From Prauserella marina (lineage in GTDB: Bacteria; Actinomycetota; Actinomycetes; Mycobacteriales; Pseudonocardiaceae): a stretch of 64,000 nucleotides of DNA. The translations under genes were made by a program, and so were the position numbers. The DNA is taken from contig NZ_CP016353.1 of NCBI RefSeq assembly GCF_002240355.1, forward strand, positions 1,786,501-1,850,500. Reading direction: 5' to 3'. A model generated the notes under the pieces. The model searched no databases, was not told the DNA's origin, and worked only from the letters and a program-made list of their open reading frames with translations. Every line of letters begins with the position of its first letter. The stretch's first letter is position 1. Shown here piece by piece: positions 2,882 to 18,461 of the stretch.

Positions 2882-3933
2882 CGAGAACCAATTTAGCCCG
2901 ACGTGGATTCCTCTTCGGCGCGGCAGGGCTCGGCGCGGGTGCCGTGCTCGTCGGCTGTACGTCCAACGAACCGGAAGCACAGAACACGCCGCAGCAGGCA
3001 GGCAACGGGCAGGGCGCCAACTCGGAACCGGGGCAGCCGGTGACCATCGGCTTCTCGGCACCGGCGGCCGACCACGGCTGGATGGCGGCCATGACCATCA
3101 ACGCCAGGGCTTCGGCGGAGCAGTTCTCCGACGTCACGCTGAACGCGACGGAGGGAACCAACGACGTCAACCAGCAGATCGCGCAGGTGGAACAGCTCAT
3201 CAACGCCGGTGTCGACGTGCTGGTGATCCTGCCGTTCGACGGCAAGGCACTGACGTCGGCCGGCAGGCAGGCCATGGACGCCGGTATTCCCGTGGTCAAC
3301 GTCGACCGCGTTTTCGACACGCCGCTGGCCTACCGGACCTGGATCGGCGGTGACAACTACCGTATGGGCGTCAACGCGGGCAACTACATCGCCACCGAGC
3401 TGAAACGGCAGAACGTGAACAATCCCGTCATCGGTGAGGTCGCCGGGATCGACTCGCTGCCGTTGACCCAGGAACGCAGTCAGGGATTCAAGGACGCGCT
3501 GGAACAACAAGGCTTCAGCGTGGGCCCGAGGGTCGCCGCGGAGTTCACCCCGGAATCGGGAGAGCGGCAGACCTCGAACCTGTTGCAGGGCGCGCAAAAC
3601 CTGCACGCGCTGTGGAACCACGACGACGACCAGGGCGTCGGGGTCGTCGCGGCGATCGAGAGTTCCGGCCGCAGCGATTTCTTCATGGTCGGCGGTGCCG
3701 GTTCGCGCAACATGATGACACTGATCAAAGAGGACTCCGGCCCGGTGAAGGCGACCGTGCTCTACAGCCCTTCGATGGCCTCCTCCGCCATCGCGATGGC
3801 CAGGCTGCTCGGCCAGGACAAGGGACTCGCCGATCTCGCGGAACACGAAATCCCGGCCGAGGTCACGACCTACTCGGCCGTGGTGACGAAGGAGAATGTG
3901 GATTCCTATATGGACGTCGGGTTCGACTCGTGA
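2878..3933 (+). CDS. Sugar-binding lipoprotein of the ABC importer (periplasmic-binding-protein-like, type I)
   Basis: A 351-residue extracellular solute-binding protein. The N-terminus contains a twin-arginine motif (ARRGFLFG) followed by a lipobox LVGC, so it is probably a Tat-exported lipoprotein anchored outside the membrane. The mature part has the ribose/galactose-binding hallmark NAGVDVLVILPFDGKAL and GIPVVNVDR. The ATG at 2878 overlaps the permease stop. Codon 6 is the rare leucine codon TTA (2893-2895). The ligand is unknown; the family binds free monosaccharides and cyclitols, which suits the downstream sugar-modifying enzymes. Confidence 0.92.
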   Translation: MTRTNLARRGFLFGAAGLGAGAVLVGCTSNEPEAQNTPQQAGNGQGANSEPGQPVTIGFSAPAADHGWMAAMTINARASAEQFSDVTLNATEGTNDVNQQIAQVEQLINAGVDVLVILPFDGKALTSAGRQAMDAGIPVVNVDRVFDTPLAYRTWIGGDNYRMGVNAGNYIATELKRQNVNNPVIGEVAGIDSLPLTQERSQGFKDALEQQGFSVGPRVAAEFTPESGERQTSNLLQGAQNLHALWNHDDDQGVGVVAAIESSGRSDFFMVGGAGSRNMMTLIKEDSGPVKATVLYSPSMASSAIAMARLLGQDKGLADLAEHEIPAEVTTYSAVVTKENVDSYMDVGFDS

Positions 3934-5111
3934 CGGAAGGCACTTCGAACGAACATCAGGTCCAGCCGCCTTCCGGGCTGGGCGTTGCCATGGTCGGGCA
4001 CGCGTTCATGGGAGCCGTGCACTCGCAGGCGTGGCGTAACGTGCACCGTTTCTTCGATCTCCCGCTCACCCCGCGCATGGTGGCACTCGGCGGCCGTGAC
4101 GCGCAGCGGGTGAAGGAGGCGGCGGGCCGGTTCGGCTGGTCGTCGGTGGAGACCGACTGGCGGGCACTGATCGAGCGCGACGACGTCGACCTCGTCGACA
4201 TCTGCACGCCCGGCGACACCCATGCCGAGATCGCCATCGCCGCGCTGAACGCGGGAAAGCATGTGCTGTGCGAGAAACCGCTCGCCAACACGGTCGCCGA
4301 GGCCGAGCGCATGACGGAGGCGGCAGAGCGCGCGCGGGCGAACGGCGTCTACTCCATGGTCGCCTTCAACTACCGGAGGGTGCCCGCGCTGGCACTGGCG
4401 AGGAAACTCGTCGAGGAGGGCAGGATCGGCGAGGTGCGGCACGTGCGCGCGGTGTACCTCCAGGACTGGCTCGCCGACGAGGACGCTCCGATGACCTGGC
4501 GGCTTCGCAAGGAACAGGCGGGTTCGGGCGCGCTCGGCGACATCGGCGCGCACATCGTCGACGCTACCCAGTTCGTCACCGGTGACGTGCTCACCGGTGT
4601 CGCGGGCTTCACGCACACCTTCGTGCCGAGGCGGCCGGGCCCCGGCGGTACCGAGGAGCCGGTGACCGTCGACGACTGCGCAGTGTTCACCGGCCGGTTC
4701 GCCTCCGGCGCGGTGGCGACCTTCGAAGCCACCCGTTACGCGCTGGGCAGGAAGAACGCCATGCGCATCGAGATCAACGGATCGCGAGGAAGCCTTTCCT
4801 TCGATTTCGAGGCCATGAACGACCTGTGGTTCTACGACGCGGAAGAACCCGGTGCCACGGCGGGATTCCGGCGCATCGTCGTCACCGAGGCCGACCACCC
4901 CTACCTCAAGGCGTGGTGGCCGCCTGGACATCTGCTGGGTTATGAGCACACCTTCACCCACGAGATCGCCGATCTGCTGACGGCGATCGGCACGAAAACC
5001 GCACCACAACCGAGTTTCGCCGACGGACTGCGCGTGCAGCGCGTGCTGGCGGCGGTCGAGCGCAGCGCTGCCGAGGGTACGCGCTGGGAGCAGGTGGACA
5101 GCACGACCTAA
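3930..5111 (+). CDS. Gfo/Idh/MocA family oxidoreductase
   Basis: A 393-residue NAD(P)-dependent dehydrogenase. The N-terminal Rossmann region reads GVAMVGHAFMG, followed by the family marker EKPLANTVAEAE and the substrate-binding half with the GDIGAHIVD motif. Members oxidise sugars or inositols, often at C3 of a glycoside. The GTG at 3930 overlaps the binding-protein stop, placing it in the same operon, and an inframe start further upstream would run through the preceding gene. With the ThuA/DUF1080 protein next door it could supply a 3-keto sugar step; the exact substrate is unproven. Confidence 0.9.
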   Translation: MTEGTSNEHQVQPPSGLGVAMVGHAFMGAVHSQAWRNVHRFFDLPLTPRMVALGGRDAQRVKEAAGRFGWSSVETDWRALIERDDVDLVDICTPGDTHAEIAIAALNAGKHVLCEKPLANTVAEAERMTEAAERARANGVYSMVAFNYRRVPALALARKLVEEGRIGEVRHVRAVYLQDWLADEDAPMTWRLRKEQAGSGALGDIGAHIVDATQFVTGDVLTGVAGFTHTFVPRRPGPGGTEEPVTVDDCAVFTGRFASGAVATFEATRYALGRKNAMRIEINGSRGSLSFDFEAMNDLWFYDAEEPGATAGFRRIVVTEADHPYLKAWWPPGHLLGYEHTFTHEIADLLTAIGTKTAPQPSFADGLRVQRVLAAVERSAAEGTRWEQVDSTT

Positions 5112-5144
5112 TTCCCCACCGGTCGAACAAGGAGAAAGGTACCA

Positions 5145-8100
5145 GTGCGACGAAGCAGTAGTACCACACCACGGAAAAGCTCTCCTCGATATCGATGGCG
5201 TTTAGGCGCGGCGGCGTTGGCACTGTGCACCGGTTTCGGTGGTGCCGGTGTCAGCGCCGCCGCGCAGCAGAAGCAAGCACCGGAAACCCAACCAGAGCAA
5301 GAAGAAGCCGCCGTCTTGGTGTTCTCCAAGACCGCGGGTTTCCGGCATGATTCGATACCAGCGGGTATCGAGGCGATTACGCAACTGGGGGCCGAAGGCG
5401 GATTCACCGTCGAGGCAACCGAAGACGCGACGGCGTTCACCGACGACAACCTCGCCCGCTTCGACGCGGTGGTGTGGTTGTCCACGACTGGGGACGTGCT
5501 CGATGACGAGCAGCAAGGCGCTTTCGAACGCTATGTCGCCGGGGGTGGCGGCTACGCCGGGGTGCACGCGGCTTCGGACACCGAATACGAATGGCCGTGG
5601 TACGGCGATCTCGTGGGTGCCTATTTCGATTCTCACCCGCACATCCAAGAGGCGACCGTCGCCGTCGAGGACGGCGAGCATCCCTCGACGCAGGGGCTTC
5701 CGCAGGAGTGGACCCGCACCGACGAGTGGTACAACTACCGCGACAACCCGCGCCAGGACGTGCACGTGCTCGCGTCTCTCGACGAAGCGAGCTACGACCC
5801 CGGAAACGGCGCGATGGGCGACCATCCGATCGCCTGGTGTCACGAGAACAGCGGTGGCAGGGCCTGGTACACCGGTGGCGGGCACACCGTCGAATCCTTC
5901 GCCGAAACCGAGTTCCTGCAACACCTTTCCGGCGGGATCCGGTACGCGGCCGGACTGGCCGACGGAGATTGCCAGCCGCCCGACGACAACGGCGGCGTGC
6001 CTTCCGATGACGACTTCGACCAGATCACCCTCGCCAAGGGCGAGCAGGTCACCGGGGAGCCGATCGCGATCGCCGTACTGCCGGACCGCAGGGTGCTGCA
6101 CACCTCCCGCGACGGAAGGGTGTTCCTGACGACTCCCGAGGCGACGACGACGGTCGCCGCGACGATCCCGGTGTACAACCACGACGAGGACGGGTTGCAG
6201 GGAATCGCGGTCGACCCCGGCTTCGAAGACAACAGGTGGGTCTACCTCTACTACGCGCCCCCGCTCGACACCCCGCAGGGAGACGCGCCGGAGAACGGAA
6301 CCGAGGCGGATTTCGCGCCGTTCAAGGGATACAACCAGCTCTCCAGGTACCAGCTGACCGAAGAGGGCACGCTCGACCTCGACAGTGAACAGCAGATCAT
6401 GCGGGTCGACGCGGAGAGGGGGATCTGCTGCCACGCCGGTGGCGAGATCGACTTCGACGCCGAAGGAAACCTGTTGCTGTCCACAGGGGACGACACGAAC
6501 CCCTTCGCCTCCGACGGGTACACGCCCATCGACGAGCGAGCCGACCGCAACCCGGTCTTCGACGGGCAGCGCAGTTCCGCCAACACCAACGACCTGCGCG
6601 GAAAGTTGTTGCGCATCAAGGTCGGCGAGGACGGCGGTTACACGATCCCCGAGGGAAACCTCTTCGCGGAGGGAACGGACAAGACGAGGCCGGAGATCTA
6701 CGCGATGGGCTTCCGGAACCCGTTCCGGTTCGCCGTCGACAAGGAGACCGGCTGGATCTACCTCGGTGACTACGGTCCGGATGCCGGCTCGGCCAACCCG
6801 AACAGGGGGCCTGGCGGCATGGTCGAGTTCAACCTGATCAAGGAGCCGGGCAACTTCGGCTGGCCGTACTGTGTCGGCGACAACGTGGCGTACAACGACT
6901 ACGACTTCGCGACCGGCGCCTCGGGCGAGTTGTTCGACTGCGCGGCACCGAAGAACGAGAGCCCGCACAACACCGGGCTCGTCGACCTTCCGCCCGCGCA
7001 ACCGGCGTGGATTCCCTACGACGGCGGTTCGGTGCCCGAGTTCGGAACCGGTGGCGAGTCGCCCATGGGCGGCCCCGTCTACCGGTTCGATCCCGAACTC
7101 GACTCGCTGACGAAGTTCCCCGAGTACTACGACGGCAAGAACTTCGCCTACGAGTGGGATCGCGGCTGGATCAAGGAGATCACCGTCGGTCCTGACGGCG
7201 AACGGGGCGACATCGCGCCGTTCTTCGACTCGATGACCCTGACCAGGCCGATGAACATCGAGTTCGGTCCGGACGGTTCGCTCTACGTGCTGGACTACGG
7301 CAGCGGGTACTTCGGAGGCGCGGCCGACTCGGCCGTCTACCGCATCGACTACACCAAGGGTAACCGGACTCCGCAGGTGCAGCTCAGCGCCGACACGACG
7401 TCGGGGCCCGGTCCGCTTGAGGTCACCTTCGATCCCTCGGGTACCACCGATCCCGACGGGGACGAGCTGAGCTACGAGTGGGACTTCGACGGTGACGGGA
7501 CGACCGACTCCACCGAAGCGGGGCCCGTGACCCACACCTACGGTGAGAACGGCCAGTATCAGGCCAGGCTCGCCGTGACAGACGAAACCGGGCTCACCGG
7601 CGCGGCGAGCGTGACGATCACCGTCGGCAACACCGAACCGGCCGTGACACTGGAAACTCCGGTCAACGGCGGCTTCTTCGGTTTCGGTGACTCGGTGCCC
7701 TTCAAGGTCACCGTAACCGATCCGGAAGACGGTGAGATCGACTGTTCCAAGGTGACGGTCGAGTACATCCTCGGTCACGACAACCACGGTCACCCGCTGT
7801 CGAGGGCGACCGGCTGTGAGGGAGTCATCAGCACTCCCGCCGACGAGGGACACGGTCTCGACGCCGACATCTTCGGCATCATCGACGCCAGCTACACCGA
7901 CAACGGTGCCGAGGGTGTTCCCGCGCTGACCGGCTCGGACCAGAACATCCTGCAACCCAAGCTGAAGCAGGCCGAGTTCTTCAGCGACCACAATGGAGTT
8001 CAGGTGGTCGAAGGGGACGGCGCGAGCGGAGGCAAGCGCGTCGGCTACATCGACGACGGTGACTGGATCGAGTTCGATCCGGCCAACCTCAGCGGAATCG

Positions 8101-9752
8101 AGGCCGTCGGCTACCGGGTGTCCTCCGGTGGCGCGGGAGGCCAGATCGAGTTGCGTTCCGGCGCTCCCGACGGTCCGGTACTGCACACGGTCGACGTCGC
8201 CAACACCGGAAGCTTCGACGACTATGTCGACCTCGATCCGGTTGCGGTGACCGATCCCGGCGGCACGCAGCCGTTGTACCTGGTGTTCAAGGGAACCGGT
8301 GTCGGTGGTCTGTTCGATGTGGACGCGGTGAACTTCGCGGGCAGCGGGGTCGCCGAGCCGGGGACGCCACCGTCGTGCGAGCCAGGGCAGCCGCAGGAGG
8401 GCTACTCCATGCTCTTCGACGGCACCGAGGACAGCATGGCGAGCTGGAACCAGGCGGGCCCTGGCTCCTTCGAGTTCCAGGACGACTGCACCATCCGCTC
8501 TACCGGGGGGATGGGGCTGTACTGGTTCGAGCAGGAGTTCTCCGCCTACAGTCTCAAGCTGGACTGGAAGATGGCCGGAGACGACAACTCCGGTGTGTTC
8601 GTCGGGTTCCCCGATCCCGGTGACGATCCGTGGGTCGCGGTGAACGAGGGCTACGAGATCCAGATCGACGCCACCGACGCCGACGACCGCACGACCGGCT
8701 CGATCTACACCTTCCAGTCGGCCGACATCGAGGCGAGGGACGCCGCGCTCAACCCGCCGGGAGAGTGGAACGCCTACGAGATCGTGGTACAGGGCCAGAC
8801 CATCAAGGTCTACCTCAACGACGTGCTGATCAACGACTTCGTCAGCACCGACCCCGCGAGGGACCTCACCAACGGTTTCGTCGGTATCCAGAACCACGGC
8901 GATGGTGACGACGTGTCGTTCAGGAACATCCAGATCAAGGAACTGGATGTGACGCCGCCGGTCACCGAGGCTTCGTTCAGCGAGCCGGGAACCGGTGGCT
9001 GGCACCAGGGCGAGGTCCCGGTGACGCTGGAGGCCACCGACGAGGGCTCCGGTGTCGAGCGGATCGAATGGCGGCTTGGGGACGGCGAGTGGACGACCTA
9101 CTCGGAGCCGGTGGTGATCAGCGGCGACGGTGAGCACAGCCTGCTCTACCGGGCGGTCGACGTCGCGGGCAACGTGGAGGCCGACAAGGCAGCCACCGTC
9201 AGCATCGACGGCACGAAGCCGACGGTGATGGTGGCCGGTGTCGCCGAGGGCAGGGTGTACGGCGACGCGAGCGACCTCGTCGTGTCGTGGCTGGCAGGTG
9301 ACGCGACCTCGGGGATCGCGCGACAGTCAGCATCGCTCGACGGTGAACCGGTCGCCTCGGGCACGGTGGTGCCGCTGCACCAGCTGCCGCTCGGGTTGCA
9401 CTCGCTGAACGTCACCGCGACCGACAACGCGGGCAACACCGCCGAGCAGACGGTGGCGTTCGCGTCCACGACGTCGTTGCGGGACATCGGTCAGCTCGTC
9501 GACCGGTTCAGGGCGAGCAACCGGCTCTCGCTGCCCGACTACGTTTCGTTGTCCTCGCAGGTCGCCAAGATTCGCAAGGCGGAGGCGAACGGCAACGACG
9601 TCAAGGCGGTGAAGGAGCTCAGGAAGTTCGCCGACGCGGCGGGCGAGATCAGCGATCAGGGCGTCGCGAGCACCCTCGTGCGCGACGCGCGGGCCGTGAT
9701 CGAACACATCGAAGGGGTGGCGCCGCTACGGTTGGCGTCCAACGGGAGTTAG
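5145..9752 (+). CDS. Secreted multidomain ThuA / GSDH-like / PKD / CBM6 / DUF1080 / FIMAH protein
   Basis: A 1535-residue exported protein. A basic N-terminus and hydrophobic stretch end in SAAA near residue 40, a Sec-type signal. Then follow: a ThuA-like domain (about 50-265; VLVFSKTAGFRHDSI, GGGYAGVHAASD), a sorbosone/glucose-dehydrogenase-like propeller (about 290-735), a PKD domain (about 740-830), a CBM6-like domain (about 930-1070), a DUF1080/3-keto-disaccharide-hydrolase-like domain (about 1085-1265; SMLFDGTEDSMASWNQ), Ig-like segments with GSGVERIEW, and a C-terminal FIMAH helical domain (about 1445-1530). The GTG at 5145 has the ribosome site AAGGAG at 5129. Codon 20 is TTA. It probably binds and processes an oxidised glycan outside the cell. 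Domain borders are estimates. Confidence 0.85.
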   Translation: MRRSSSTTPRKSSPRYRWRLGAAALALCTGFGGAGVSAAAQQKQAPETQPEQEEAAVLVFSKTAGFRHDSIPAGIEAITQLGAEGGFTVEATEDATAFTDDNLARFDAVVWLSTTGDVLDDEQQGAFERYVAGGGGYAGVHAASDTEYEWPWYGDLVGAYFDSHPHIQEATVAVEDGEHPSTQGLPQEWTRTDEWYNYRDNPRQDVHVLASLDEASYDPGNGAMGDHPIAWCHENSGGRAWYTGGGHTVESFAETEFLQHLSGGIRYAAGLADGDCQPPDDNGGVPSDDDFDQITLAKGEQVTGEPIAIAVLPDRRVLHTSRDGRVFLTTPEATTTVAATIPVYNHDEDGLQGIAVDPGFEDNRWVYLYYAPPLDTPQGDAPENGTEADFAPFKGYNQLSRYQLTEEGTLDLDSEQQIMRVDAERGICCHAGGEIDFDAEGNLLLSTGDDTNPFASDGYTPIDERADRNPVFDGQRSSANTNDLRGKLLRIKVGEDGGYTIPEGNLFAEGTDKTRPEIYAMGFRNPFRFAVDKETGWIYLGDYGPDAGSANPNRGPGGMVEFNLIKEPGNFGWPYCVGDNVAYNDYDFATGASGELFDCAAPKNESPHNTGLVDLPPAQPAWIPYDGGSVPEFGTGGESPMGGPVYRFDPELDSLTKFPEYYDGKNFAYEWDRGWIKEITVGPDGERGDIAPFFDSMTLTRPMNIEFGPDGSLYVLDYGSGYFGGAADSAVYRIDYTKGNRTPQVQLSADTTSGPGPLEVTFDPSGTTDPDGDELSYEWDFDGDGTTDSTEAGPVTHTYGENGQYQARLAVTDETGLTGAASVTITVGNTEPAVTLETPVNGGFFGFGDSVPFKVTVTDPEDGEIDCSKVTVEYILGHDNHGHPLSRATGCEGVISTPADEGHGLDADIFGIIDASYTDNGAEGVPALTGSDQNILQPKLKQAEFFSDHNGVQVVEGDGASGGKRVGYIDDGDWIEFDPANLSGIEAVGYRVSSGGAGGQIELRSGAPDGPVLHTVDVANTGSFDDYVDLDPVAVTDPGGTQPLYLVFKGTGVGGLFDVDAVNFAGSGVAEPGTPPSCEPGQPQEGYSMLFDGTEDSMASWNQAGPGSFEFQDDCTIRSTGGMGLYWFEQEFSAYSLKLDWKMAGDDNSGVFVGFPDPGDDPWVAVNEGYEIQIDATDADDRTTGSIYTFQSADIEARDAALNPPGEWNAYEIVVQGQTIKVYLNDVLINDFVSTDPARDLTNGFVGIQNHGDGDDVSFRNIQIKELDVTPPVTEASFSEPGTGGWHQGEVPVTLEATDEGSGVERIEWRLGDGEWTTYSEPVVISGDGEHSLLYRAVDVAGNVEADKAATVSIDGTKPTVMVAGVAEGRVYGDASDLVVSWLAGDATSGIARQSASLDGEPVASGTVVPLHQLPLGLHSLNVTATDNAGNTAEQTVAFASTTSLRDIGQLVDRFRASNRLSLPDYVSLSSQVAKIRKAEANGNDVKAVKELRKFADAAGEISDQGVASTLVRDARAVIEHIEGVAPLRLASNGS

Positions 9753-9793: not shown

Positions 9794-9830
9794 CTCGTCC
9801 GCCCCATCCCCGGTACAGAAGGTGACAGGT

Positions 9831-10979
9831 ATGGTATCCATCGGGTTGTGGTTGGTCGGCGCGCGAGGTTCGGTTGCCACTACGGCGATCGCGGGACTGC
9901 TCGCGTTGCGGGACAGGATCGTCCAGCCGGAGGGCTGCGTCAGCGCGCTTCCCCAGTTCGAGGGCTCCGGTCTGCCCACGTGGGACGAGATCAGGGTCGG
10001 CGGGCACGACATCGCCGAAACCGCGCTCGACAAACGTGCGGAACTGCTCACCGATTCGGGTGTGATCCCGCACCGGGTGCTCGACGCGGTCCGTTCCGGA
10101 CTGTCCGAGGTGGACGGTGATATTCGAGGTGGTTACCACCCGGCGACGCATTCCGGCTCCCAGGCCGACGCGGCGAGGCGGCTCGCCGACGACATCGGCG
10201 AGTTCTCCTCGCGGCACGGCCTCGACAGGGTCGTCGTCGTCAACGTGTCCTCGACCGAACCGGTGTTTCCCTCGCTACCGGAACATCGCACGCTGGAAGC
10301 GCTCGAAGCTGCCATGGCCGTGCCGGGAAGAACGGTGCTGCCGCCGAGTTCGGTCGCCGCCTACGCCGCCATACGTGCGGGTTGTCCCTTTGTCGACTTC
10401 ACGCCATCGACCGGTATCCGGTTGCCCGCGCTGACCGAACTCGCCCGCAGGCAGGCGATCCCGTACGCGGGTTCGGACGGCAAGACCGGCGAGACGCTCG
10501 TGCGCAGCACGCTCGCTCCCATGTTCGCGGCAAGAGCGCTGTCAGTGCGGTCCTGGTCGGGCACGAATCTGCTCGGCGGGGGCGACGGGCTCACCCTCGC
10601 CGACGCCGAGCACGCGGGCAGCAAGCTCGCCTCGAAGGGAAGGGGCCTCGCCACACTGCTCGGCTCCGAGGTCACCGCCCCACTGCACATCGACAACGTG
10701 CCCGATCTCGGCGAGCAGAAGATCGCGTGGGATCACGTGTCGTTCTCCGGTTTCCTCGGGGTGCGGATGAGCGTGCAGTTCACCTGGAGCGGATACGATT
10801 CGGCGCTCGCGGCCCCGCTGGTACTCGATCTCGCCAGGTTCACCTCGGCGGCGCACGCGGCTGGAAAGGCCGGTCCGCTCGGCGCGCTCGGTTTCTTCTT
10901 CAAGGACCCTGTCGGCACCGACGAGCACCGGCTCGCCGAGCAGTTCGCCGCGCTCGTGTCGTGGGCCGGTGAGCTGTGA
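9831..10979 (+). CDS. Inositol-3-phosphate-synthase-family protein, first gene of the ebo cluster
   Basis: A 382-residue homologue of myo-inositol-1-phosphate synthase, the NAD-dependent cyclase that turns glucose 6-phosphate into an inositol phosphate. It shows the nucleotide-binding start GLWLVGARGSVATTAIAG and the later motifs GSDGKTGET, NLLGGGDG and YDSALAAPLVLDLAR seen in this family. An in-frame GTG at 9822 lies within the Shine-Dalgarno AGAAGG (9817-9822), so ATG 9831 with an 8-nt gap is preferred. Its stop overlaps the next gene. In canonical ebo clusters the sugar-phosphate cyclase is EboD, a dehydroquinate-synthase relative, which is absent here; this protein may fill that role. Confidence 0.85.
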   Translation: MVSIGLWLVGARGSVATTAIAGLLALRDRIVQPEGCVSALPQFEGSGLPTWDEIRVGGHDIAETALDKRAELLTDSGVIPHRVLDAVRSGLSEVDGDIRGGYHPATHSGSQADAARRLADDIGEFSSRHGLDRVVVVNVSSTEPVFPSLPEHRTLEALEAAMAVPGRTVLPPSSVAAYAAIRAGCPFVDFTPSTGIRLPALTELARRQAIPYAGSDGKTGETLVRSTLAPMFAARALSVRSWSGTNLLGGGDGLTLADAEHAGSKLASKGRGLATLLGSEVTAPLHIDNVPDLGEQKIAWDHVSFSGFLGVRMSVQFTWSGYDSALAAPLVLDLARFTSAAHAAGKAGPLGALGFFFKDPVGTDEHRLAEQFAALVSWAGEL

Positions 10980-11845
10980 CGGCACGGCTTCGGTCCTATG
11001 TGGACCTGGTGAGGGCGCCCGCCGCACTGACCGTCGTCGGCGACACCGTCGCGGGAGCCGCGGCGGCTGGAATGCCGCTGCGGGGCAGGCAGTGGGCGCT
11101 GCCACTGTCTTCCGTCGCGCTGTACTGGGCGGGCATGGCCCTCAACGACTGGGCGGACCGGAAGCTCGACGCGGTCGAACGACCCGAGCGGCCGATCCCT
11201 TCCGGGCGAGTGACACCGGGCGCGGCACTCGTCACTGGGGGTGCGCTGACCGCCGCCGGGCTCGGCCTCGCCGGGTTCGGGGGTGGTCAGCGCGCGGCCC
11301 GCACCGCGGCGGTTCTCGCGGCGGCGGTGTGGACCTACGACACCAGGCTCAAGGGCACGGCACTAGGGCCGGTGGGTATGTCGGTGTGCAGGGCACTCGA
11401 CGTCCTGCTCGGTGCCGGAGGCCGGTGGCGGCCGGCGGCACCGGCCGCCTGCGCGCTCGCCGTGCACACGCTCGGCGTCACCGCCCTGTCCGGCGGCGAG
11501 GTGCACGGCGGCTCGGTCACCACGGCGGGTGCGGCACTGGCCGGAACAACGGCGGCGACGGGAATCGCGGTCGCCGGTCGCGGGGGAGCGAACGGCGGGG
11601 CGAGCAGGATCGCGGCACTGGGCTTCGGCGCGGGATATGCCTTCACCGTGGGAGCCGCGCAACTCGGCGCGGCGCGGCGCCCCACGGCGGCCAGCGTCAG
11701 GACGGCCACGGCTGCCGGAATCCACGGCATGGTCCCGTTGCAGGCCAGTCTCGCCGCCCGCAACGGCGCGGTGCGCACGGCCGCCGTGCTCGCCGCGGCG
11801 CTGCCGCTGGCCAGGAAGCTGGCGAGGAAGGTGAGCCCGACATGA
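10976..11845 (+). CDS. eboC: UbiA-family prenyltransferase-like membrane protein EboC
   Basis: A 289-residue polytopic protein. The Asp-rich motif NDWADRKLD followed by ERPERPIPSGR is the diagnostic UbiA diphosphate/Mg-binding site, and a second region with YDTRLKG matches the other conserved loop. UbiA enzymes move a prenyl chain from its diphosphate onto an aromatic or sugar acceptor in the membrane. The start is a GTG overlapping the previous stop by 4 nt, and its own end overlaps the next ATG. Between the cyclase and EboA/EboB/EboE/EboF it is recognisable as EboC. Which acceptor it prenylates is unknown. Confidence 0.85.
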   Translation: MTARLRSYVDLVRAPAALTVVGDTVAGAAAAGMPLRGRQWALPLSSVALYWAGMALNDWADRKLDAVERPERPIPSGRVTPGAALVTGGALTAAGLGLAGFGGGQRAARTAAVLAAAVWTYDTRLKGTALGPVGMSVCRALDVLLGAGGRWRPAAPAACALAVHTLGVTALSGGEVHGGSVTTAGAALAGTTAATGIAVAGRGGANGGASRIAALGFGAGYAFTVGAAQLGAARRPTAASVRTATAAGIHGMVPLQASLAARNGAVRTAAVLAAALPLARKLARKVSPT

Positions 11846-13230
11846 CCCTGCGATTCGGCTACGGCACCAACGGTTTCGCCAACCACCGGCTGGACGAGGC
11901 GCTGCGGATCATCGCCGATCTCGGCTACACCGGTGTCGCGCTGACCCTCGACCACGCACACCTCGATCCCTTCGCCGACGACGTGGCAGCCGAGACCAGC
12001 AGGGTGGCGGGCCTGCTCGACCGGCTGGGGCTGAGTGTCGTCGTCGAGACCGGCGCGCGGTTCCTGCTCGATCCCCTGCGCAAACACCAGCCGACGCTCG
12101 TGTCGGCCGATCCGGCTGCCCGGATCGACTTCCTGCTGCGCGCGGGCCGGATCGCGGCCGAACTCGGCGCCGACTGCGTGTCGTTCTGGTCCGGCGTCGC
12201 ACCATCCGATGTGGACGAACCGGTGGCGTGGTCCCGGCTCGCCGAAGGTGTCGAGGCCGTGCTGTCGGACGGTGGCCTCGCCGAGGCGGGAGTCCGCTAC
12301 GCGCTCGAACCCGAGCCAGGTCACTTCGTACAGCACGTCGAGCAGGCGCTGGAACTGAGGCACACGCTCGGCTCGCCGGAGCGGCTCGGCATCACCCTCG
12401 ACGTGGGGCACTGCGTCGCGGTCGAGCCGGTGTCGGCCGCCGAATGCGTGCGCCAGGTGGGCGGGTTGCTGTTCAACGTGCAACTGGACGACATGCTGCC
12501 CGGCGTCCACGAACACCTCGAATTCGGGGAGGGCGGGCTCGATCTGGTCGAGACCGTCGCCGCGCTCGCCGAGGTGGGCTATCCGGGCCTCGCGGCCATC
12601 GAATTGCCCCGGCACAGCCACGCCGCTCCCGACGTCGCGCGCCGGGGCATCGAGGCGCTGCGGGCCGCGGAGTGGATTTCCTCGGCACGGCGCGACATCG
12701 CCGCCGATCCGGTGAAGATCCGGACCCTGTTCCCCTCGGTGGGCCGCATGGCGGGAAGGTCGGCGCCGGAGGGTTCCGGGCTGATCGAGGGAACGGTGGA
12801 CGACAAGGCGAGGGTGAATCTGCTCGCCGCGTTGCCGCCAGCCGATCTCGCCGCCGAGATCACCGCGCTCTACCGTTACGGCGACGGGGCAGAACGCAGA
12901 GGAGTGCTACGCGGACTGCACCTGCTTCCCGAGGACGCGATCGAGGCGGGGCTGCGGCTGGTCGAGGATGCGTTGCGCGCCAACGACACCGGCCTTGTCG
13001 CGGCGGCGCTCGGTCCGTTCGCCGCCAGGCATCTCGACGCGCACACCTGGCGGCACGGCGTGCTCAAGTGCCTGTTCACCGGTGTTCCGCTCGCCGCGGT
13101 CAGCGGGCTCGCCGAACGGGCCGACGAAGAGCTGGTGCGGATGGTCGCCGATTTCGCGGCCGAACGCAGAGCGGCGGGCAGGGCGGTCCCCGGCGACGCC
13201 GAAGCGATCATCAAGGAGGCCACGGCATGA
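11842..13230 (+). CDS. eboA: TIM-barrel sugar isomerase-like domain fused to EboA
   Basis: A 462-residue two-part protein. Residues 1 to about 285 form a xylose-isomerase-like TIM barrel (FGYGTNGFANHRLDEALRIIADLGYTG, with metal-ligand-like EPEPGH, TLDVGHC, IELPRHSH). Residues about 290-462 match the EboA domain, with the typical block HTWRHGVLKCLFTGVPL and RADEELVRMVADFAAERR. Canonical EboA is a stand-alone protein of about 200 residues, so the fusion links it to a sugar-modifying enzyme. The ATG at 11842 overlaps the eboC stop, and its stop overlaps eboB. The role of EboA is not established. Confidence 0.85.
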   Translation: MTLRFGYGTNGFANHRLDEALRIIADLGYTGVALTLDHAHLDPFADDVAAETSRVAGLLDRLGLSVVVETGARFLLDPLRKHQPTLVSADPAARIDFLLRAGRIAAELGADCVSFWSGVAPSDVDEPVAWSRLAEGVEAVLSDGGLAEAGVRYALEPEPGHFVQHVEQALELRHTLGSPERLGITLDVGHCVAVEPVSAAECVRQVGGLLFNVQLDDMLPGVHEHLEFGEGGLDLVETVAALAEVGYPGLAAIELPRHSHAAPDVARRGIEALRAAEWISSARRDIAADPVKIRTLFPSVGRMAGRSAPEGSGLIEGTVDDKARVNLLAALPPADLAAEITALYRYGDGAERRGVLRGLHLLPEDAIEAGLRLVEDALRANDTGLVAAALGPFAARHLDAHTWRHGVLKCLFTGVPLAAVSGLAERADEELVRMVADFAAERRAAGRAVPGDAEAIIKEATA

Positions 13231-14090
13231 GAATCTTCGATCCGCACATCCACATGACCTCCCGTACCACCGGCGACTACGAGGCGATGTACGCGGCTGG
13301 GGTTCGCGCGCTCGTCGAGCCTGCGTTCTGGCTCGGCCAGCCCCGAACCAGCGTCGGTTCCTTCGTCGACTACTTCGACGGGCTCATCGGCTGGGAACGG
13401 TTCCGCGCCGCGCAGTTCGGCATCCGGCACCACTGCACGATCGCGCTGAATCCCAAGGAGGCCAACGATCCGCGTTGCGCCGAAGTGCTCGACCTGTTGC
13501 CGCGCTACCTCGCCAAGGACGGCGTCGTCGCGGTCGGCGAGGTCGGCTACGACTCGATGACCGATGCCGAGGAGAAGGCGTTCACCCGGCAGCTCGCACT
13601 CGCCGTCGAACACGATCTCCCCGTGCTCGTGCACACCCCGCACAGGGACAAACTCGCCGGGACCAAACGCACGCTGGACGTGGTCGCCGATTCGGGTATC
13701 GCGCCGGACCGGGTCGTCGTAGATCACCTCAACGAGCTGACCGTCGGGGTCGTCGCCGATTCCGGTTGCTGGATGGGTTTTTCCATCTACCCCGACACCA
13801 AAATGGACGAACAGCGCATGGTGGCGATCCTGCGCGAGTACGGTACCGACCGCATGCTCGTCAACTCGGCTGCCGACTGGGGACGTTCCGATCCGCTCAA
13901 GACGCAGGCCACCGGTACGGCCATGCTCGAAGCCGGGTTCACCGAGTCCGCCGTGGACACGGTGCTGTGGTCGAACCCGGTTGCTTTCTACGGCAAGAGC
14001 GGCAAACTCATGCTCGATCCGTTTCCCAGCGACGAGGGGAGCGCGGCGACGTTCGAGGGCAACTCGGTGCTGCGCGGGGCGAGGGCGTAA
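13227..14090 (+). CDS. eboB: TatD-family metal-dependent hydrolase EboB
   Basis: A 287-residue amidohydrolase-fold protein with the metal-binding start FDPHIHMTSRT (HxH), a mid-protein GEVGYDSMT, VLVHTPHRD, VVDHLNE and a late NSAADWGRSDPL that supplies the catalytic aspartate. This arrangement is the EboB subgroup of TatD-like hydrolases. The ATG at 13227 overlaps the previous stop and has AAGGAGG at 13213, so the start is firm. The stop TAA overlaps the ATG of eboE. TatD proteins act on nucleic acids or small lactone/phosphate substrates; the substrate here is unknown. Confidence 0.88.
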   Translation: MRIFDPHIHMTSRTTGDYEAMYAAGVRALVEPAFWLGQPRTSVGSFVDYFDGLIGWERFRAAQFGIRHHCTIALNPKEANDPRCAEVLDLLPRYLAKDGVVAVGEVGYDSMTDAEEKAFTRQLALAVEHDLPVLVHTPHRDKLAGTKRTLDVVADSGIAPDRVVVDHLNELTVGVVADSGCWMGFSIYPDTKMDEQRMVAILREYGTDRMLVNSAADWGRSDPLKTQATGTAMLEAGFTESAVDTVLWSNPVAFYGKSGKLMLDPFPSDEGSAATFEGNSVLRGARA

Positions 14091-15193
14091 TGCTGCTGTC
14101 CTACTGCACCAACGTGCACCCCGCCGAGGACCTGGAAGGGATACTACGGCAGCTCGACACCTATGCCGTTCCCGTCGCGGAACATCTCGGCGCCGACCGG
14201 CTCGGGATCGGATTGTGGCTCGCCGCCGGTGTCGCGTCGGGGCTGGCCACCGACCGTAGCGCCAGGAAGCGGCTCGCGGCCGAACTGAGCGCGCGAGGGC
14301 TCGCCGTCCGGACGATGAACGCCTTCCCCTACGGTGGTTTTCACGACGATGTCGTCAAGCACTCGGTCTACCTGCCGACCTGGACCGACCCGAGACGGTT
14401 ACGGTACACATTGGACTGTGTGACCGTGCTGGCCGATCTGCTCGATCCCGAAGCGAGCTACGGAAGCATCTCGACATTGCCGCTCGCGTGGCGGACGCCG
14501 TGGAGCACTTCACACGACGTGCGATCCGCGATCGCCTTCGACGAGGTCGCCAGGGTGCTGCGCACTTCGCTGGCCCGCAACGAGCGGCCGATCCGCATCG
14601 CGGTCGAGCCCGAACCGGGGTGCGTGCTCGACACCGTTGCCGACGCGGTGCGCTGGCTTTCCGGAAGGGTCGACCCCGAGCACATCGGACTGTGCCTCGA
14701 CACCTGCCATCTCGCGGTGTCGTTCGCCGATCCCGCCGCCACGGTCAAAACCATTGCCGAGTCAGGGCTGAAAGTGGTGAAGGTGCAGGCTTCGGCCGCG
14801 CTGCATGTCGAGAACCCCGCCGATCCGGCGGCAATGGCGGCGCTTGCCGAGTTCTCCGAGCCCCGCTATCTGCACCAGGTGCGCGAACTGTCGGCTTCGG
14901 GAGCGGTGCTCGCCGCCGACGATCTTCCGGCCGCGATGGACGAACTGCCCGCGACGGGACCGTGGCGCGTGCACTTCCACGTCCCGCTGCACGCGCGGCC
15001 GAGCGCGCCGCTGAGTTCGACGACCTCGGTGCTCACCGAGACGATCGGGGCGCTCGGCGCTCTCGGTGGCGAGCTGCCGCATGTCGAGGTGGAGACCTAC
15101 ACCTGGAACGTGCTGCCGCCCGCGCAGCGCCAGGATCTCGCTTCCGGAATCGCAGAGGAACTGAACTGGGCTCGCGCGGAGGTGCTGCCGTGA
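14090..15193 (+). CDS. eboE: Metabolite traffic protein EboE (xylose-isomerase-like TIM barrel)
   Basis: A 367-residue TIM barrel of the EboE type: it begins LLSYCTNVHPAEDLEGI, contains the family-typical RTMNAFPYGGFH and KHSVYLPTW, then VEPEPGCVLDT, LCLDTCHLAV and HFHVPLH, which provide the probable metal ligands. EboE is a core member of ebo clusters in cyanobacteria, algae and other bacteria. The ATG at 14090 overlaps the eboB stop (TAATG). A rare TTA codon occurs at 14399-14401. Its reaction is not known; an isomerase or epimerase of a sugar-like intermediate is plausible from fold. Confidence 0.88.
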   Translation: MLLSYCTNVHPAEDLEGILRQLDTYAVPVAEHLGADRLGIGLWLAAGVASGLATDRSARKRLAAELSARGLAVRTMNAFPYGGFHDDVVKHSVYLPTWTDPRRLRYTLDCVTVLADLLDPEASYGSISTLPLAWRTPWSTSHDVRSAIAFDEVARVLRTSLARNERPIRIAVEPEPGCVLDTVADAVRWLSGRVDPEHIGLCLDTCHLAVSFADPAATVKTIAESGLKVVKVQASAALHVENPADPAAMAALAEFSEPRYLHQVRELSASGAVLAADDLPAAMDELPATGPWRVHFHVPLHARPSAPLSSTTSVLTETIGALGALGGELPHVEVETYTWNVLPPAQRQDLASGIAEELNWARAEVLP

Positions 15194-16590
15194 AGAAACT
15201 GCTGCTGCTCGACATCGTCGGCATGACCCCTTCGCTGTTGCGGCACATGCCCAACCTCACCGCGATGGCGACGAGGGGCTGGCAGGCGCAGCTCGGCACG
15301 GTGCTTCCCGCCGTCACGTGCAGCGCGCAGTCGACGTTCCTGACCGGGACGATGCCCGCTCAGCACGGCATCGTCGGCAACGGCTGGTACTTCCGCGAGC
15401 TCGGCGAGGTCCACCTGTGGCGCCAGCACAACCGGCTCGTGCGGGGACCGAAGCTGTGGGAGACGGCGAGGGAAACAGCGCCGGAGTACACCGCGGCCAA
15501 CATCTGCTGGTGGTACGCGATGGGTGCGAGTACCGACTTCACCGTCACGCCACGGCCCATCTACCACGCCGACGGCCGCAAGTCCCCCGACTGTTACGCG
15601 CGGCCACCGGCGCTGCACGACGAGCTGACCGAAGCGCTCGGCCCGTTTCCGCTCTTCCAGTACTGGGGCCCCACCGCCTCGATCGCCTCCACCCGGTGGA
15701 TCGTCGGCGCCTCGCGCAGGCTGCTGCGCACCCAGCGGCCCGACCTCGTGCTCACCTACCTGCCACACCTCGACTACGACCTGCAACGCTACGGCCCCGG
15801 TTCGGCCAAGGCCGCCGAGGCGGCCCGCGCCGTCGACACCGAGGTGGCCGCGCTGTTGACCGACGCGCGGGAGGCGGGCTACGTGGTGGTCGCGCTCTCG
15901 GAGTACGGCATCACGGAGGCCGACACCCCCGTCGACATCAACAGGGCGCTGCGCAGGGCCGGGTTGCTTGAGGTGTACACACAGGACGGTATGGAGTACC
16001 TCGATCCGTGGGCCTCCAGCGCGTTCGCCGTCGCCGACCACCAGGTCGCCCACGTGTATGTGCGCGACGAAGCCGACCAGCCGAGGGTGCGGGCGATCGT
16101 GGCGGAGCTGACCGGGGTCGACGAAGTGCTCGACCGGCAGGCCCAGGCCCGCTACGGCATCGACCACGAACGCGCGGGCGAGTTCGTCGCCGTCGCCGAG
16201 CCGCGCGCGTGGTTCACCTACTACTACTGGCTTGACGACGACCGCAAACCGGATTTCGCGCGGGGAGTGGAGATCCACCGCAAACCGGGTTACGACCCGG
16301 CCGAGTTGTTCTTCGACCCCGGCGACAAACTGGTGAAGGTCAAGGCGGCGGCCAATCTGGTGCGCAAGAAGGCCGGTCTCCGGTACGCGATGAACGTCGT
16401 CCCCACAGATCCGGCCCCGGTGCGGGGCTCGCACGGCAGGCTGCCCGACTCAGCGGCCGATGGGCCGGTGCTGTTGTGTTCCGATCCCGCGATACCGGCC
16501 ACTGTGGAGAGTTCCGGTCGTCTCGCCGGAACCGATGTGCGTGATCTGTTGCTGCATCTGCAAGGAATCCGAGAGGAAGTGTTCCGATGA
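15190..16590 (+). CDS. eboF: Alkaline-phosphatase-superfamily phosphodiesterase EboF
   Basis: A 466-residue nucleotide pyrophosphatase/phosphodiesterase-like protein. Motifs in order: [14 protein letters not shown] (metal site Asp), [25 protein letters not shown] (the Thr/Ser nucleophile region), [14 protein letters not shown] (metal site), and [17 protein letters not shown]. These match the EboF branch of type I phosphodiesterases. No signal peptide is visible, so it acts in the cytoplasm. The GTG start overlaps eboE by 4 nt, and the stop overlaps the next ATG. It could release a phosphorylated or nucleotide-linked precursor; this is inference. Confidence 0.88.
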
Positions 16591-17594
16591 GCCGTCCCGT
16601 CACACTGTTCACGGGCCAGTGGGCCGACCTTCCGTTCGACGAGGTGTGTCGGCTGGCCGCCGAATGGGGCTACGACGGCCTTGAGATCGCGTGCTCGGGT
16701 GATCATTTCGAGGTCGACCGTGCACTGTCCGAAGAGGACTACGTCGAGAACAGGCTGAAACTGCTCGAATCGCACGGACTGAAAGTGTGGGCCATTTCCA
16801 ACCACCTCGTCGGCCAGGCGGTGTGCGACGACCCGATCGACGAGCGGCACCGCAACATCCTGCCCGCCAGGATCTGGGGCGACGGTGAGCCGGAGGGCGT
16901 GCGGCAGCGCGCGGCGGCCGAGCTGGCCGACACCGCGAGGGCCGCGGCGAAGCTGGGCGTGGACACCGTCATCGGCTTCACCGGTTCCAAGATCTGGAAG
17001 TACGTCGCTATGTTCCCCCCTGTCGGGCAGGACACCATCGACGACGGCTACGCCGACTTCGCGGCCCGCTGGAACCCCATTCTCGACGTGTTCGACGAGG
17101 TCGGTGTCCGGTTCGCGCACGAGGTACATCCCAGTGAGATCGCCTACGACTACTGGACGACCCAGCGCACGCTGGAGGCGGTGGGCCACCGGCCCGCGTT
17201 CGGCCTCAACTGGGATCCCTCGCACTTCGTGTGGCAGGACCTCGATCCGGTCGGTTTCATCCTCGATTTCGCCGACCGGATCTACCACGTGGACTGCAAG
17301 GACACCAAGAAGCGGTTCGACGGCCGCAACGGGCGGCTCGGCTCGCACCTCGCGTGGGCCGATCCCCGTCGTGGCTGGGATTTCGTGTCGACGGGACACG
17401 GCGACGTCGACTGGGAGAGCGCGTTTCGGGCGCTCAACTCCATCGGTTACACCGGCCCTATTTCGGTCGAGTGGGAGGACGCTGGCATGGACCGGCTCAG
17501 GGGTGCCGCCGAAGCCGTTCACTACATCAGGAATCTCAACTTCGACAAGCCGGCGGCAGCCTTCGACGCCGCCTTCAGTGCCGAGAGGAACTGA
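16587..17594 (+). CDS. Cytoplasmic sugar phosphate isomerase/epimerase-like TIM barrel
   Basis: A 335-residue xylose-isomerase-fold protein: [25 protein letters not shown] at the start, [35 protein letters not shown] and [11 protein letters not shown] supply the usual Glu/Asp/His/Glu metal ligands. It has no export signal. ATGA overlap with eboF places it in the ebo operon, and such a gene is a plausible extra tailoring enzyme. The family includes inosose isomerases and keto-sugar epimerases, which fits the inositol-phosphate-synthase-like first gene. The true substrate is unknown. Confidence 0.87.
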
Positions 17595-17600
17595 TCGATC

Positions 17601-18461
17601 ATGACGGATACGAGGTTGTCCCGTCGCGCGATGCTGCGTACCGCCGGGGTCGCCACGGCTGCGGCTGGGCTCGCCGTCGCCGCGCCGGGGGTGGCGACGG
17701 CGGGCTGGGGGCATGGCTGGGGAAGGCGGATTCCCAAGGACCGCATCGGAATTCAGCTCTACACGTTGCGCGACGCCTTCGAAGCGGATCTCGAAGGAAC
17801 CATGGAGGCGCTTGCCGACATCGGTTACCGCTCGGTGGAACTGGCCGGAACCTACGGTCGTTCAGCGAAGGAGTTCCGGCGCGTACTCGACAGGTACCGG
17901 CTGCGGGCGATCTCGGCACACGTCGACTTCAACGGAGCCGACGTCGATCAACTCATCGACGACGCGAAAACCATCGGCTACCGCACCGCCGACTGTGCCT
18001 ACGCCAACTACGGCACCATCGCGGAGTGGACCGACTTCGCCAAGCGGCTCGACAAGGCGGGCAAGGCGTTCCGCAAGGCGGGGATCAAGTACGGCTACCA
18101 CAACCACGCCCACGAGTTTCAGGCCATCGACGGCGTCCGGCCCATCGACGTCATAGCGCGGCACACCTCGCGGCACAACATCCACTTCGAACACGACCTG
18201 TACTGGATCGTCAGCGGAGGCGCCGATCCGGTGCGCGAGTTCTACCGCTACTTCGGCAGGGTCACCCAGTTTCACGTCAAGGACAGGGCGGAGGACGGAA
18301 GCTTCGCCGACCTCGGCACTGGGACGATCGACTTCCGGCGGCTGTTCAGGGACACCTGGGTCGGTCAGCTGAAGGACTACATCGTCGAGCACGACGCGCC
18401 GACCGACCCGGTGAACACCGCCGCCGTCGGTTACCGCTATCTGGCGAACCTCCGGTTCTGA
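17601..18461 (+). CDS. Tat-exported sugar isomerase/epimerase-like TIM barrel
   Basis: A 286-residue xylose-isomerase-like barrel with a clear twin-arginine signal at the start (LSRRAMLRTAGVATAAAG and cleavage near ATAG, about residue 35). The mature domain shows GIQLYTLRDAFEADLEGT, GYRSVELAG, GYHNHAHEF, FEHDLYWIV and HVKDR, the metal-site segments of this fold. Export is unusual for an isomerase but is seen in extracellular keto-sugar processing systems. It starts 6 nt after the previous gene and closes the plus-strand run. It could act on products of the secreted DUF1080 protein at 5145. Confidence 0.87.
   Translation: MTDTRLSRRAMLRTAGVATAAAGLAVAAPGVATAGWGHGWGRRIPKDRIGIQLYTLRDAFEADLEGTMEALADIGYRSVELAGTYGRSAKEFRRVLDRYRLRAISAHVDFNGADVDQLIDDAKTIGYRTADCAYANYGTIAEWTDFAKRLDKAGKAFRKAGIKYGYHNHAHEFQAIDGVRPIDVIARHTSRHNIHFEHDLYWIVSGGADPVREFYRYFGRVTQFHVKDRAEDGSFADLGTGTIDFRRLFRDTWVGQLKDYIVEHDAPTDPVNTAAVGYRYLANLRF

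Follow-up and report, generated by a model that had tools for sequence, protein, structure and literature searches.

The ebo operon described here lies in a stretch of 64,000 nucleotides of the genome of the actinobacterium Prauserella marina (contig NZ_CP016353.1, positions 1,786,501 to 1,850,500 of the forward strand), which is referred to as the window and numbered from its first letter. According to reading-frame analysis and family scans, positions 9831-16590 of the + strand form one coupled operon which encodes myo-inositol-1-phosphate synthase (MIPS), EboC, a fusion of a triosephosphate isomerase (TIM)-like barrel with EboA, EboB, EboE and EboF (Table 1). The genes overlap by 1-4 nt throughout, as a first-pass annotation of this DNA had stated: 4 nt are shared by MIPS/EboC, EboC/TIM-EboA, TIM-EboA/EboB and EboE/EboF, and 1 nt by EboB/EboE. 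EboF also overlaps by 4 nt the gene of a further TIM-barrel protein (TIM7), which is followed after a gap of 6 nt by TIM8. The MIPS gene starts with the ATG at 9831, and an in-frame GTG at 9822 is likewise open.

The EboA domain, EboB, EboC, EboE and EboF of the canonical operon (ABCDEF, as described in the sections of PMC5133447 and PMC6282210 considered here) are present and coupled in the window. The differences are that the cyclase EboD is replaced by MIPS and a TIM barrel, that EboA is fused to this barrel, and that EboC passes the SCO3242 prenyltransferase model (NF045897, 364 bits, cut-off 260) but reaches 144 bits on the EboC equivalog model (cut-off 250). The first-pass annotation had recognized an ebo cluster, and profile scans place the products of the genes at 11842, 14090 and 15190 in the Ebo families or their superfamilies. 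Two assignments are to be revised: the 11842 product, taken for EboA, does contain an EboA domain but is a TIM-EboA fusion, and EboF occupies 15190-16590, the gene that ends at 17594 encoding another TIM protein and not EboF.

Proteins Encoded in the Operon

The cluster MIPS matches both domains of its family (PF07994, 173 bits, cut-off 25; PF01658, 100 bits, cut-off 27). The nearest solved structures are the MIPS of Archaeoglobus fulgidus (1u1i), matched over its full length at 228 bits, and 7nwr (164 bits), followed by lower matches to Ari2 (6k96, 47 bits) and 1gr0 (35 bits). The host carries two MIPS genes, the cluster copy and an Ino1-like copy elsewhere (L176; L and G numbers are our handles for loci and genomes). 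Two other identities were rejected, namely the housekeeping Ino1 (26.5 bits on the actinobacterial Ino1 model TIGR03450, cut-off 638, with a separate Ino1 in the genome) and an Ari2-like enzyme, Ari2 being an enzyme that acts on fructose 6-phosphate (47 bits to Ari2 vs. 228 to the archaeal MIPS).

Residues N246, K265, K269, K297 and K358 of the window MIPS, which correspond to N255, K274, K278, K306 and K367 of the A. fulgidus enzyme, are invariant in 40/40 cluster-type rows, and so are D216, K218, D252 and D323 (window numbering); these positions are in part presumed by us to be catalytic. The alignment was thinned from 81 to 51 rows, including the 40 cluster-type rows; a few rows (e.g., L163) come from outside ebo loci. 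Mutant structures (3qvw, 3qvx, 3qw2) and a portion of PMC11348189 bear on the catalytic role of the conserved positions. The natural reading of these residues is that the cluster MIPS would be an active enzyme. It shares its catalytic residues with the A. fulgidus enzyme, whereas the cluster enzymes group apart from the latter in a quick tree (to which the A. fulgidus row was added as typed by hand). In this tree the actinobacterial cluster MIPS form one group (37 rows, Shimodaira-Hasegawa-like approximate likelihood ratio test, SH-aLRT, 94, on a branch that is not starred), and the closest named relatives of the host EboC and MIPS in the respective trees are from Pseudonocardiaceae.

EboC shows 31% identity to EboC of the EboD-type locus L029. 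Its predicted structure (predicted local distance difference test, pLDDT, 95.5) has as best fold match by E-value the digeranylgeranylglyceryl phosphate (DGGGP) synthase 6m31 (6e-7, template-modeling, TM, score 0.62), which is also the nearest solved relative by profile (50 bits); the Aeropyrum UbiA homolog 4od4 ranks above it by TM score (0.67). Among 44 aligned sequences the first Asp motif, kept as in DGGGP synthase (NDxxDxxxD), and Y121, M135 and R139 occur in 44/44 and E175 in 43/44. Unlike DGGGP synthase, EboC contains in these 44 sequences no Asp-rich second motif in the stretch where we assume it would lie, and has the conserved E175 instead. The second-motif site holds H in most actinobacterial MIPS-type rows and Y or another residue in EboD-type rows; it was rejected as a marker of the cyclase type and follows lineage, since non-actinobacterial MIPS-type rows also have Y. 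The EboC tree comprises EboC of ebo clusters and no other UbiA proteins, and cannot test family membership. The likeness of EboC to DGGGP synthase agrees with a remark in the part of PMC6282210 considered. The family model also links the window EboC to Streptomyces coelicolor, where, in the portion of PMC3610822 consulted, SCO3243 is listed as a myo-inositol phosphate synthase and SCO3242 as a putative transferase; both are counted there with the CDA antibiotic cluster, with no link to ebo in that portion.

The 11842 product matches PF01261 over its first ~285 residues (108 bits) and the EboA domain NF035938 over residues 320-456 (165 bits, cut-off 50), and reaches 58 bits on the full-length EboA family NF035937 (cut-off 320). 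Its model (pLDDT 95.3) shows a barrel followed by a helical domain. For EboA, a search by sequence found no solved relative (best E-value 1). The TIM profile retrieves among solved structures MJ1311 (89 bits), UlaE (77) and then xylose isomerases, with lower matches to IolE (48), D-tagatose 3-epimerase (45) and IolI (44 bits), and E156, D187, H190 and E254 are invariant in 12/12 rows. The sugar(-phosphate) 3-epimerases UlaE, D-tagatose 3-epimerase and MJ1311 are thus among the nearest solved relatives; identities in the fold matches are 18-21%, and the TIM substrate is not predictable. The TIM frame continues into a tail of 179-260 residues, with room for EboA, in 14/82 TIM frames including that of the window, and four of these 14 tails proved to be EboA, those of the window, L106 and L164 by profile and that of L041 by a full-length match.

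EboB matches TatD (PF01026, 54 bits, cut-off 27) and is 42% identical to EboB of L029, and EboE scores 427 bits on NF035939 (cut-off 250). No curated EboF model was found; EboF was assigned through PF01663 (212 bits, cut-off 23) and a phmmer match of 493 bits to EboF of L029. Its closest solved relatives are phosphonoacetate hydrolase and NPP.

Table 1. Genes of the operon and its 3' neighbors in the window.
Gene	Product	Position	Strand	Family
MIPS	Archaeal-type myo-inositol-1-phosphate synthase, 382 aa; in EboD's place as putative cyclitol source	9831..10979	+	PF07994/PF01658
EboC	UbiA-type integral membrane prenyltransferase, SCO3242 family, 289 aa	10976..11845	+	NF045897
TIM-EboA	Fusion of xylose-isomerase-like TIM barrel (N-terminal, ~residues 1-285) and EboA domain (C-terminal, ~320-456)	11842..13230	+	PF01261, NF035938
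EboB	TatD-like metal-dependent hydrolase, 287 aa	13227..14090	+	PF01026
EboE	TIM-barrel protein, 367 aa	14090..15193	+	NF035939
EboF	Type I phosphodiesterase/alkaline-phosphatase-superfamily hydrolase, 466 aa	15190..16590	+	PF01663
TIM7	Xylose-isomerase-like; variable neighbor overlapping EboF, not a core ebo gene	16587..17594	+	PF01261, 148 bits
TIM8	IolE-like TIM protein; variable neighbor	17601..18461	+	PF01261, 48 bits; TIGR04379, 54 bits (under cut-off 290)

Absence of EboD from the Host Genome

A profile search found no EboD in the operon or in the whole host genome (6.99 Mb, 99.96% complete), nor was a second eboC found there, so that the reported lack of EboD holds beyond the operon. 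The sole dehydroquinate (DHQ) synthase match of the host adjoins an AroQ-like type II dehydroquinase gene (AroQ assigned by eye), a context that marks it as AroB. It scores 173 bits on the EboD profile A4, vs. 580-618 bits in EboD-type genomes, and an EboD hidden elsewhere in the genome was rejected on the basis of the DHQ-synthase search and these scores. Profile A4 was built from 12 EboD-type loci and run over 45 genomes; the seven EboD-positive genomes (7/7 at 580-618 bits) each gave a row to it and therefore match by construction. Among the 38 other genomes, 37 do not exceed 212 bits and G318 (82% complete) lacks a match. Of these, 31 contain MIPS-type ebo genes, some of them split, and seven (G279, G410, G531, G533, G542, G076, and G053) have a broken, a TIM-only or no ebo cluster.

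Distribution and Mutual Exclusion of the Two Cyclase Types

In a draw of 396 genomes from the host's phylum, 19 matched EboE at E 0.001, 18 of them over its cut-off. The MIPS profile A3 exceeded 500 bits in 17 of the 396, all of them among the 18 with EboE over the cut-off; seven genomes including G279 scored 317-333 bits, and the rest of the 79 with matches at E 1e-40 remained below 272. The eighteenth EboE genome (G381) is of EboD type, with the gene order D-B-E-C-F and then a type 2 isopentenyl diphosphate (IPP) isomerase, and the nineteenth (G279) has EboE only under the cut-off, in a broken cluster. Eleven of the 17 MIPS genomes gave rows to A3 and six did not; the informative parts despite the circularity of the profiles are the negatives and the six MIPS genomes giving no rows (G128, G334, G246, G107, G051, and G268).

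EboE was over the cut-off in 31 of 150 genomes drawn from the host's order. A full cluster-type MIPS lies in the fetched stretch of 26 of them, and the other five have a lone EboE-like gene (G410, G418), end at a contig edge (G402, G445) or show a partial MIPS of 106 bits (G493); EboD was found in none of the 31 stretches. The MIPS type of ebo cluster is thus a recurrent type in the host's phylum. A draw of 329 Pseudomonadota yielded EboE in three genomes, two of them of EboD type (L167, L168) and the third, of MIPS/TIM type, being the genome at the center of the draw. From named genomes 80 loci were taken, which are the best 80 of at least 580 relatives confirmed for an EboD-type EboB.

The pooled set consists of loci in which three or more of EboB, EboC, EboE and EboF exceed 150 bits, with the duplicates L044, L084, L087, L095 and L158 dropped. 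The resulting 90 loci divide into MIPS with TIM (61), EboD (17), TIM only (9) and none of the three (3). EboD occurs together with TIM in 0/90 and together with MIPS in 0/90. Fisher's test for TIM vs. EboD gives P 1e-15, which serves only as a guide because the loci are related, the sampling is non-random and duplicates across the collections may remain. The stand-in of MIPS for EboD, proposed in the first-pass annotation from one locus, is hence a regular pattern, although the replacement consists of MIPS together with a TIM-barrel isomerase and not of MIPS alone. The order MIPS-C-TIM-A-B-E-F occurs in 45/90 loci, with 12 more that have the same order without a separate EboA, and spans Streptomycetaceae, Micromonosporaceae, Pseudonocardiaceae, Streptosporangiaceae and Solirubrobacter. 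Five EboD-type genomes were tested with PF01658: no MIPS was found in G538, G539 and G541, and G537 and G381 have one each with a hit span as for Ino1, G381 being without an A3 match at E 1e-40.

The cluster belongs to Actinomycetota as previously labeled, but not exclusively so, since parts of it also occur in other phyla and G381 of the host's phylum carries EboD. In a Rokubacteria genome one contig carries MIPS-EboC (L159) and a second one TIM-EboA-EboB-EboE-EboF at its edge (L083). In a Myxococcota genome TIM-MIPS-EboC (L160) is separate from EboA-EboB (L099), and the gammaproteobacterial locus L157 reads TIM-EboC-EboA-EboB-EboE-EboF with MIPS ~12 kb upstream on the same strand. In the quick EboC tree the actinobacterial MIPS/TIM type forms one starred group of 40 rows (35 MIPS and TIM, 4 TIM only, 1 MIPS only), and L157 is sister to another gammaproteobacterial locus, L122, which has EboD (SH-aLRT 96). 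Because the starred branches force at least three changes of the EboD label, in a quick tree with long branches, and because of the L157/L122 pair, the exchange between EboD and MIPS/TIM appears to have occurred repeatedly.

In six genomes that lack EboE (L169-L174), MIPS and TIM are likewise neighbors, no more than ~6.5 kb apart, and TIM is therefore linked to MIPS independently of ebo. These pairs possibly belong to a separate inositol-derived pathway. In L169 one strand carries MIPS, an unassigned gene, a methyltransferase, a Gfo/Idh oxidoreductase, a second unassigned gene (metallo-beta-lactamase-like by eye) and, further on, TIM.

Some isolated or partial ebo-like genes were observed as well. 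Lone EboE-like TIM proteins, with no other ebo genes in the fetched stretches, occur in genomes of the host's order (L131, L151, L152, L153, and L155). In a control set of 14 known genomes EboE was matched in one, Haloferax volcanii, where the match was under the cut-off in all three draws; an EboE-like protein may exist in Haloarchaea. An acidobacterial group TIM-EboB-TIM-EboC (L097:796-4499) precedes genes that are presumably sugar-kinase-like and glycosyltransferase-like, and many EboB loci of planctomycetes lack further ebo genes in the vicinity. The Planctomycetota genome G542 (L161, L071) has a MIPS of 452 bits on A3, a weak EboC match (63 bits) and no EboD, and may bear on the eboD-less Planctomycetes of PMC5133447, as far as the sections considered describe them.

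Flanking Genes

Directly 5' of the operon, positions 294-9752 of the window hold genes, assigned by eye, for a sugar ABC transporter and for a Gfo/Idh oxidoreductase, as well as one for a secreted-looking protein of 1535 aa whose domains are ThuA, glucose/sorbosone dehydrogenase, CBM6, PKD and 3-keto-disaccharide hydrolase; the region looks like a keto-sugar island. The Gfo/Idh gene 5' of MIPS was not counted as an operon member and seems in the window to be part of this island, such genes being abundant in genomes of this kind. On the 3' side, a counterpart of TIM7 lies directly after EboF in some related loci and is several kb off or not seen in others, and the N-terminus of TIM8 resembles a twin-arginine signal by eye.

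Flank clustering was noisy, with wrong-frame open reading frames (ORFs) included, and was used only for type 1 IPP isomerase and a small ORF. The former stands beside 5/105 loci (duplicates included), three of EboD type and two of MIPS type, only the L129 copy being profile-checked; the latter flanks 11 EboD-type loci (duplicates included). IPP isomerase genes directly beside ebo loci are of type 2 in L029:13122-14159 (EboD type) and of type 1 in L129:7007-7567 (MIPS type). O-methyltransferases (PF00891) adjoin non-actinobacterial MIPS/TIM-type ebo genes at L084:13816-14661 and L160:6300-7301, and a FAD oxidoreductase precedes EboC in L026.

A Proposed Pathway and its Alternatives

The operon probably represents a second chemical type of ebo cluster, in which EboD is exchanged for MIPS and a TIM-barrel isomerase and the product is a prenylated cyclitol lipid. 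From the gene identities, the coupling, the absence of EboD, the exclusion of cyclase types in the collected loci, the intact active-site residues of MIPS and the EboC fold, all of them directly established, we infer all the reactions, also that of MIPS, as well as their order and the product's role. MIPS would convert glucose 6-phosphate into 1L-myo-inositol 1-phosphate, as its residues suggest. The TIM domain, held by the EboA helical domain, may isomerize or otherwise modify the cyclitol, judging from the fold, the fusion and the MIPS-TIM pair, and EboC, akin to an archaeal ether-lipid synthase, would transfer a prenyl chain in the membrane onto the cyclitol as putative acceptor. On the basis of their superfamilies, EboF may remove or transfer phosphate and EboB and EboE may tailor the headgroup. 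The prenylated cyclitol lipid would then be a carrier that helps metabolites across the membrane, in line with the model of PMC6282210 for Nostoc, where mutants described in the sections considered indicate that the ebo genes act in metabolite export.

Prenyl-cyclitol products have been predicted before, in two published models (PMC5133447, section 3.7; PMC6282210, "A potential mechanism of action"). The swap of two unrelated cyclases is genetic evidence of an independent kind for a cyclitol in the product. It does not follow, as the first-pass annotation had proposed, that the pathway begins with a cyclitol phosphate: enzymes of the sugar-phosphate cyclase superfamily, to which EboD belongs, release phosphate (PMC5133447, section 3.7) whereas MIPS keeps it, and for this reason the common denominator is the cyclitol and not its phosphate. 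If the ebo products share a head, either EboC acts on an unphosphorylated ring with a phosphatase step after MIPS, or the products differ.

Several observations weigh against a second chemical type with a prenylated cyclitol product. In the gammaproteobacterium ~12 kb separate MIPS from the rest, and in Rokubacteria, Myxococcota and Herbidospora the cluster is distributed among contigs, MIPS-A-B-E standing apart from EboC in Herbidospora (L111, L117); these splits fit a modular inositol supply and make a strict requirement for a cyclase within the operon less likely. Nine of the 90 loci have TIM and neither cyclase, of which three (L083, L096, and L142) are truncated at a contig edge and a fourth, L130, shows a partial MIPS match of 106 bits. 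The other five (L026, L113, L115, L119, and L121) are uncut; L026, from genome G128, groups among Streptomyces in the EboC tree and the remaining four are Streptomyces loci. Four of the five genomes possess a further cluster-type MIPS elsewhere, which in G128 belongs to a second ebo cluster and in G535 (L164) to a partial one, and which stands apart in G534 and G536 (L163, L165). All five have a MIPS match with the span seen for Ino1. Three further loci (L047, L085, and L150) lack EboD, MIPS and TIM. The published in vitro activity of an EboC relative, UbiA-297 of Maribacter, is farnesylation of quinoline acids, with 14 acceptors, all aromatic, in the part of PMC9235831 considered. EboD products are unphosphorylated and possibly C7, and MIPS products are C6 phosphates, so that the two types need not have identical end products; the literature searched identifies no ebo product. 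The loci are not a random sample, and the genomes examined are from groups other than Cyanobacteria and Bacteroidota.

Among the alternatives, EboD and MIPS plus TIM may converge on the same or an interchangeable cyclitol (e.g., a deoxy-inosose), all ebo clusters then making one compound class by two routes. This is possible but rather unlikely. The other ebo proteins are common to both types, cyclase sets swap on related EboC backgrounds as in L157/L122, and the solved TIM relatives include IolE and IolI, though behind many sugar isomerases. EboD, however, is placed near sedoheptulose-7-phosphate cyclases, which give C7 rings, in the portion of PMC5133447 considered. The core operon also contains no dehydrogenase, and EboC of the two types differs around residues 162-183, though along lineage.

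It appears doubtful as well that, as the first-pass annotation supposed, a cyclitol phosphate is the direct EboC acceptor and the product an inositol-phosphate prenyl ether. DGGGP synthase, the nearest relative of EboC, prenylates a phosphorylated polyol. EboD-type clusters nevertheless retain a related EboC although their cyclitol should be unphosphorylated, to judge from the sections of PMC5133447 considered.

That MIPS merely supplies free inositol for neighboring use (catabolism, compatible solute), with the ebo proteins using a substrate unrelated to it and perhaps aromatic, is improbable. It would suit the aromatic acceptors of the Maribacter enzyme, the transporter, Gfo/Idh and ThuA/3-keto-disaccharide-hydrolase genes that precede the operon in the window, and the presence of a Gfo/Idh-like frame within 3 kb of 25/61 MIPS-type vs. 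0/17 EboD-type loci (many EboD-type flanks being short). The 4-nt overlap of MIPS and EboC and the gene order retained across several families speak against it, and it is further disfavored because the MIPS type excludes EboD, which would not be expected of mere inositol supply.

Least probable is that the cluster MIPS makes another cyclitol phosphate and the operon a prenylated cyclopentitol or other ring, for although a MIPS ortholog with another product exists (Ari2, deposited as "Five-membered-cyclitol-phosphate synthase"; PMC11348189, in the portion considered) and the actinobacterial cluster MIPS form their own group, the match is far better to the A. fulgidus enzyme than to Ari2 and all five residues aligned with that enzyme are kept.

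Relation to Known Systems and Significance

The ebo cluster and the SCO3242 family (named by NCBI) were known already, and the variant that joins MIPS and TIM with ebo appears to be new. In the sections considered, PMC5133447 surveys 148 taxa and describes losses of eboD and an eboA/eboG alternative, and PMC9235831 describes ebo-like neighborhoods in Saccharomonospora with no mention of inositol there. The main texts of PMC5133447, PMC6282210 and PMC9235831 do not contain the word "inositol" (0 occurrences), and no link of MIPS or inositol to ebo was found among the literature matches listed, a search whose scope did not extend to supplements, preprints and most subscription papers.

The prenylated cyclitol reading can be extended, tentatively, to an undescribed class of isoprenoid-cyclitol membrane lipids, which may have an inositol-derived head in Actinomycetota and some other phyla, be made by an archaeal-like pair of MIPS and a DGGGP-synthase-like enzyme with two exchangeable routes to the ring, and act as a metabolite carrier.

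The ebo product was left open by the papers of 2016, 2018, and 2022 (PMC5133447, PMC6282210, and PMC9235831, in the sections considered). The cyclase swap names a precursor, inositol, that can be labeled and traced, adds the TIM protein as a further ebo component needing explanation, and brings the question to Streptomyces, in which gene deletion and lipidomics are standard practice.

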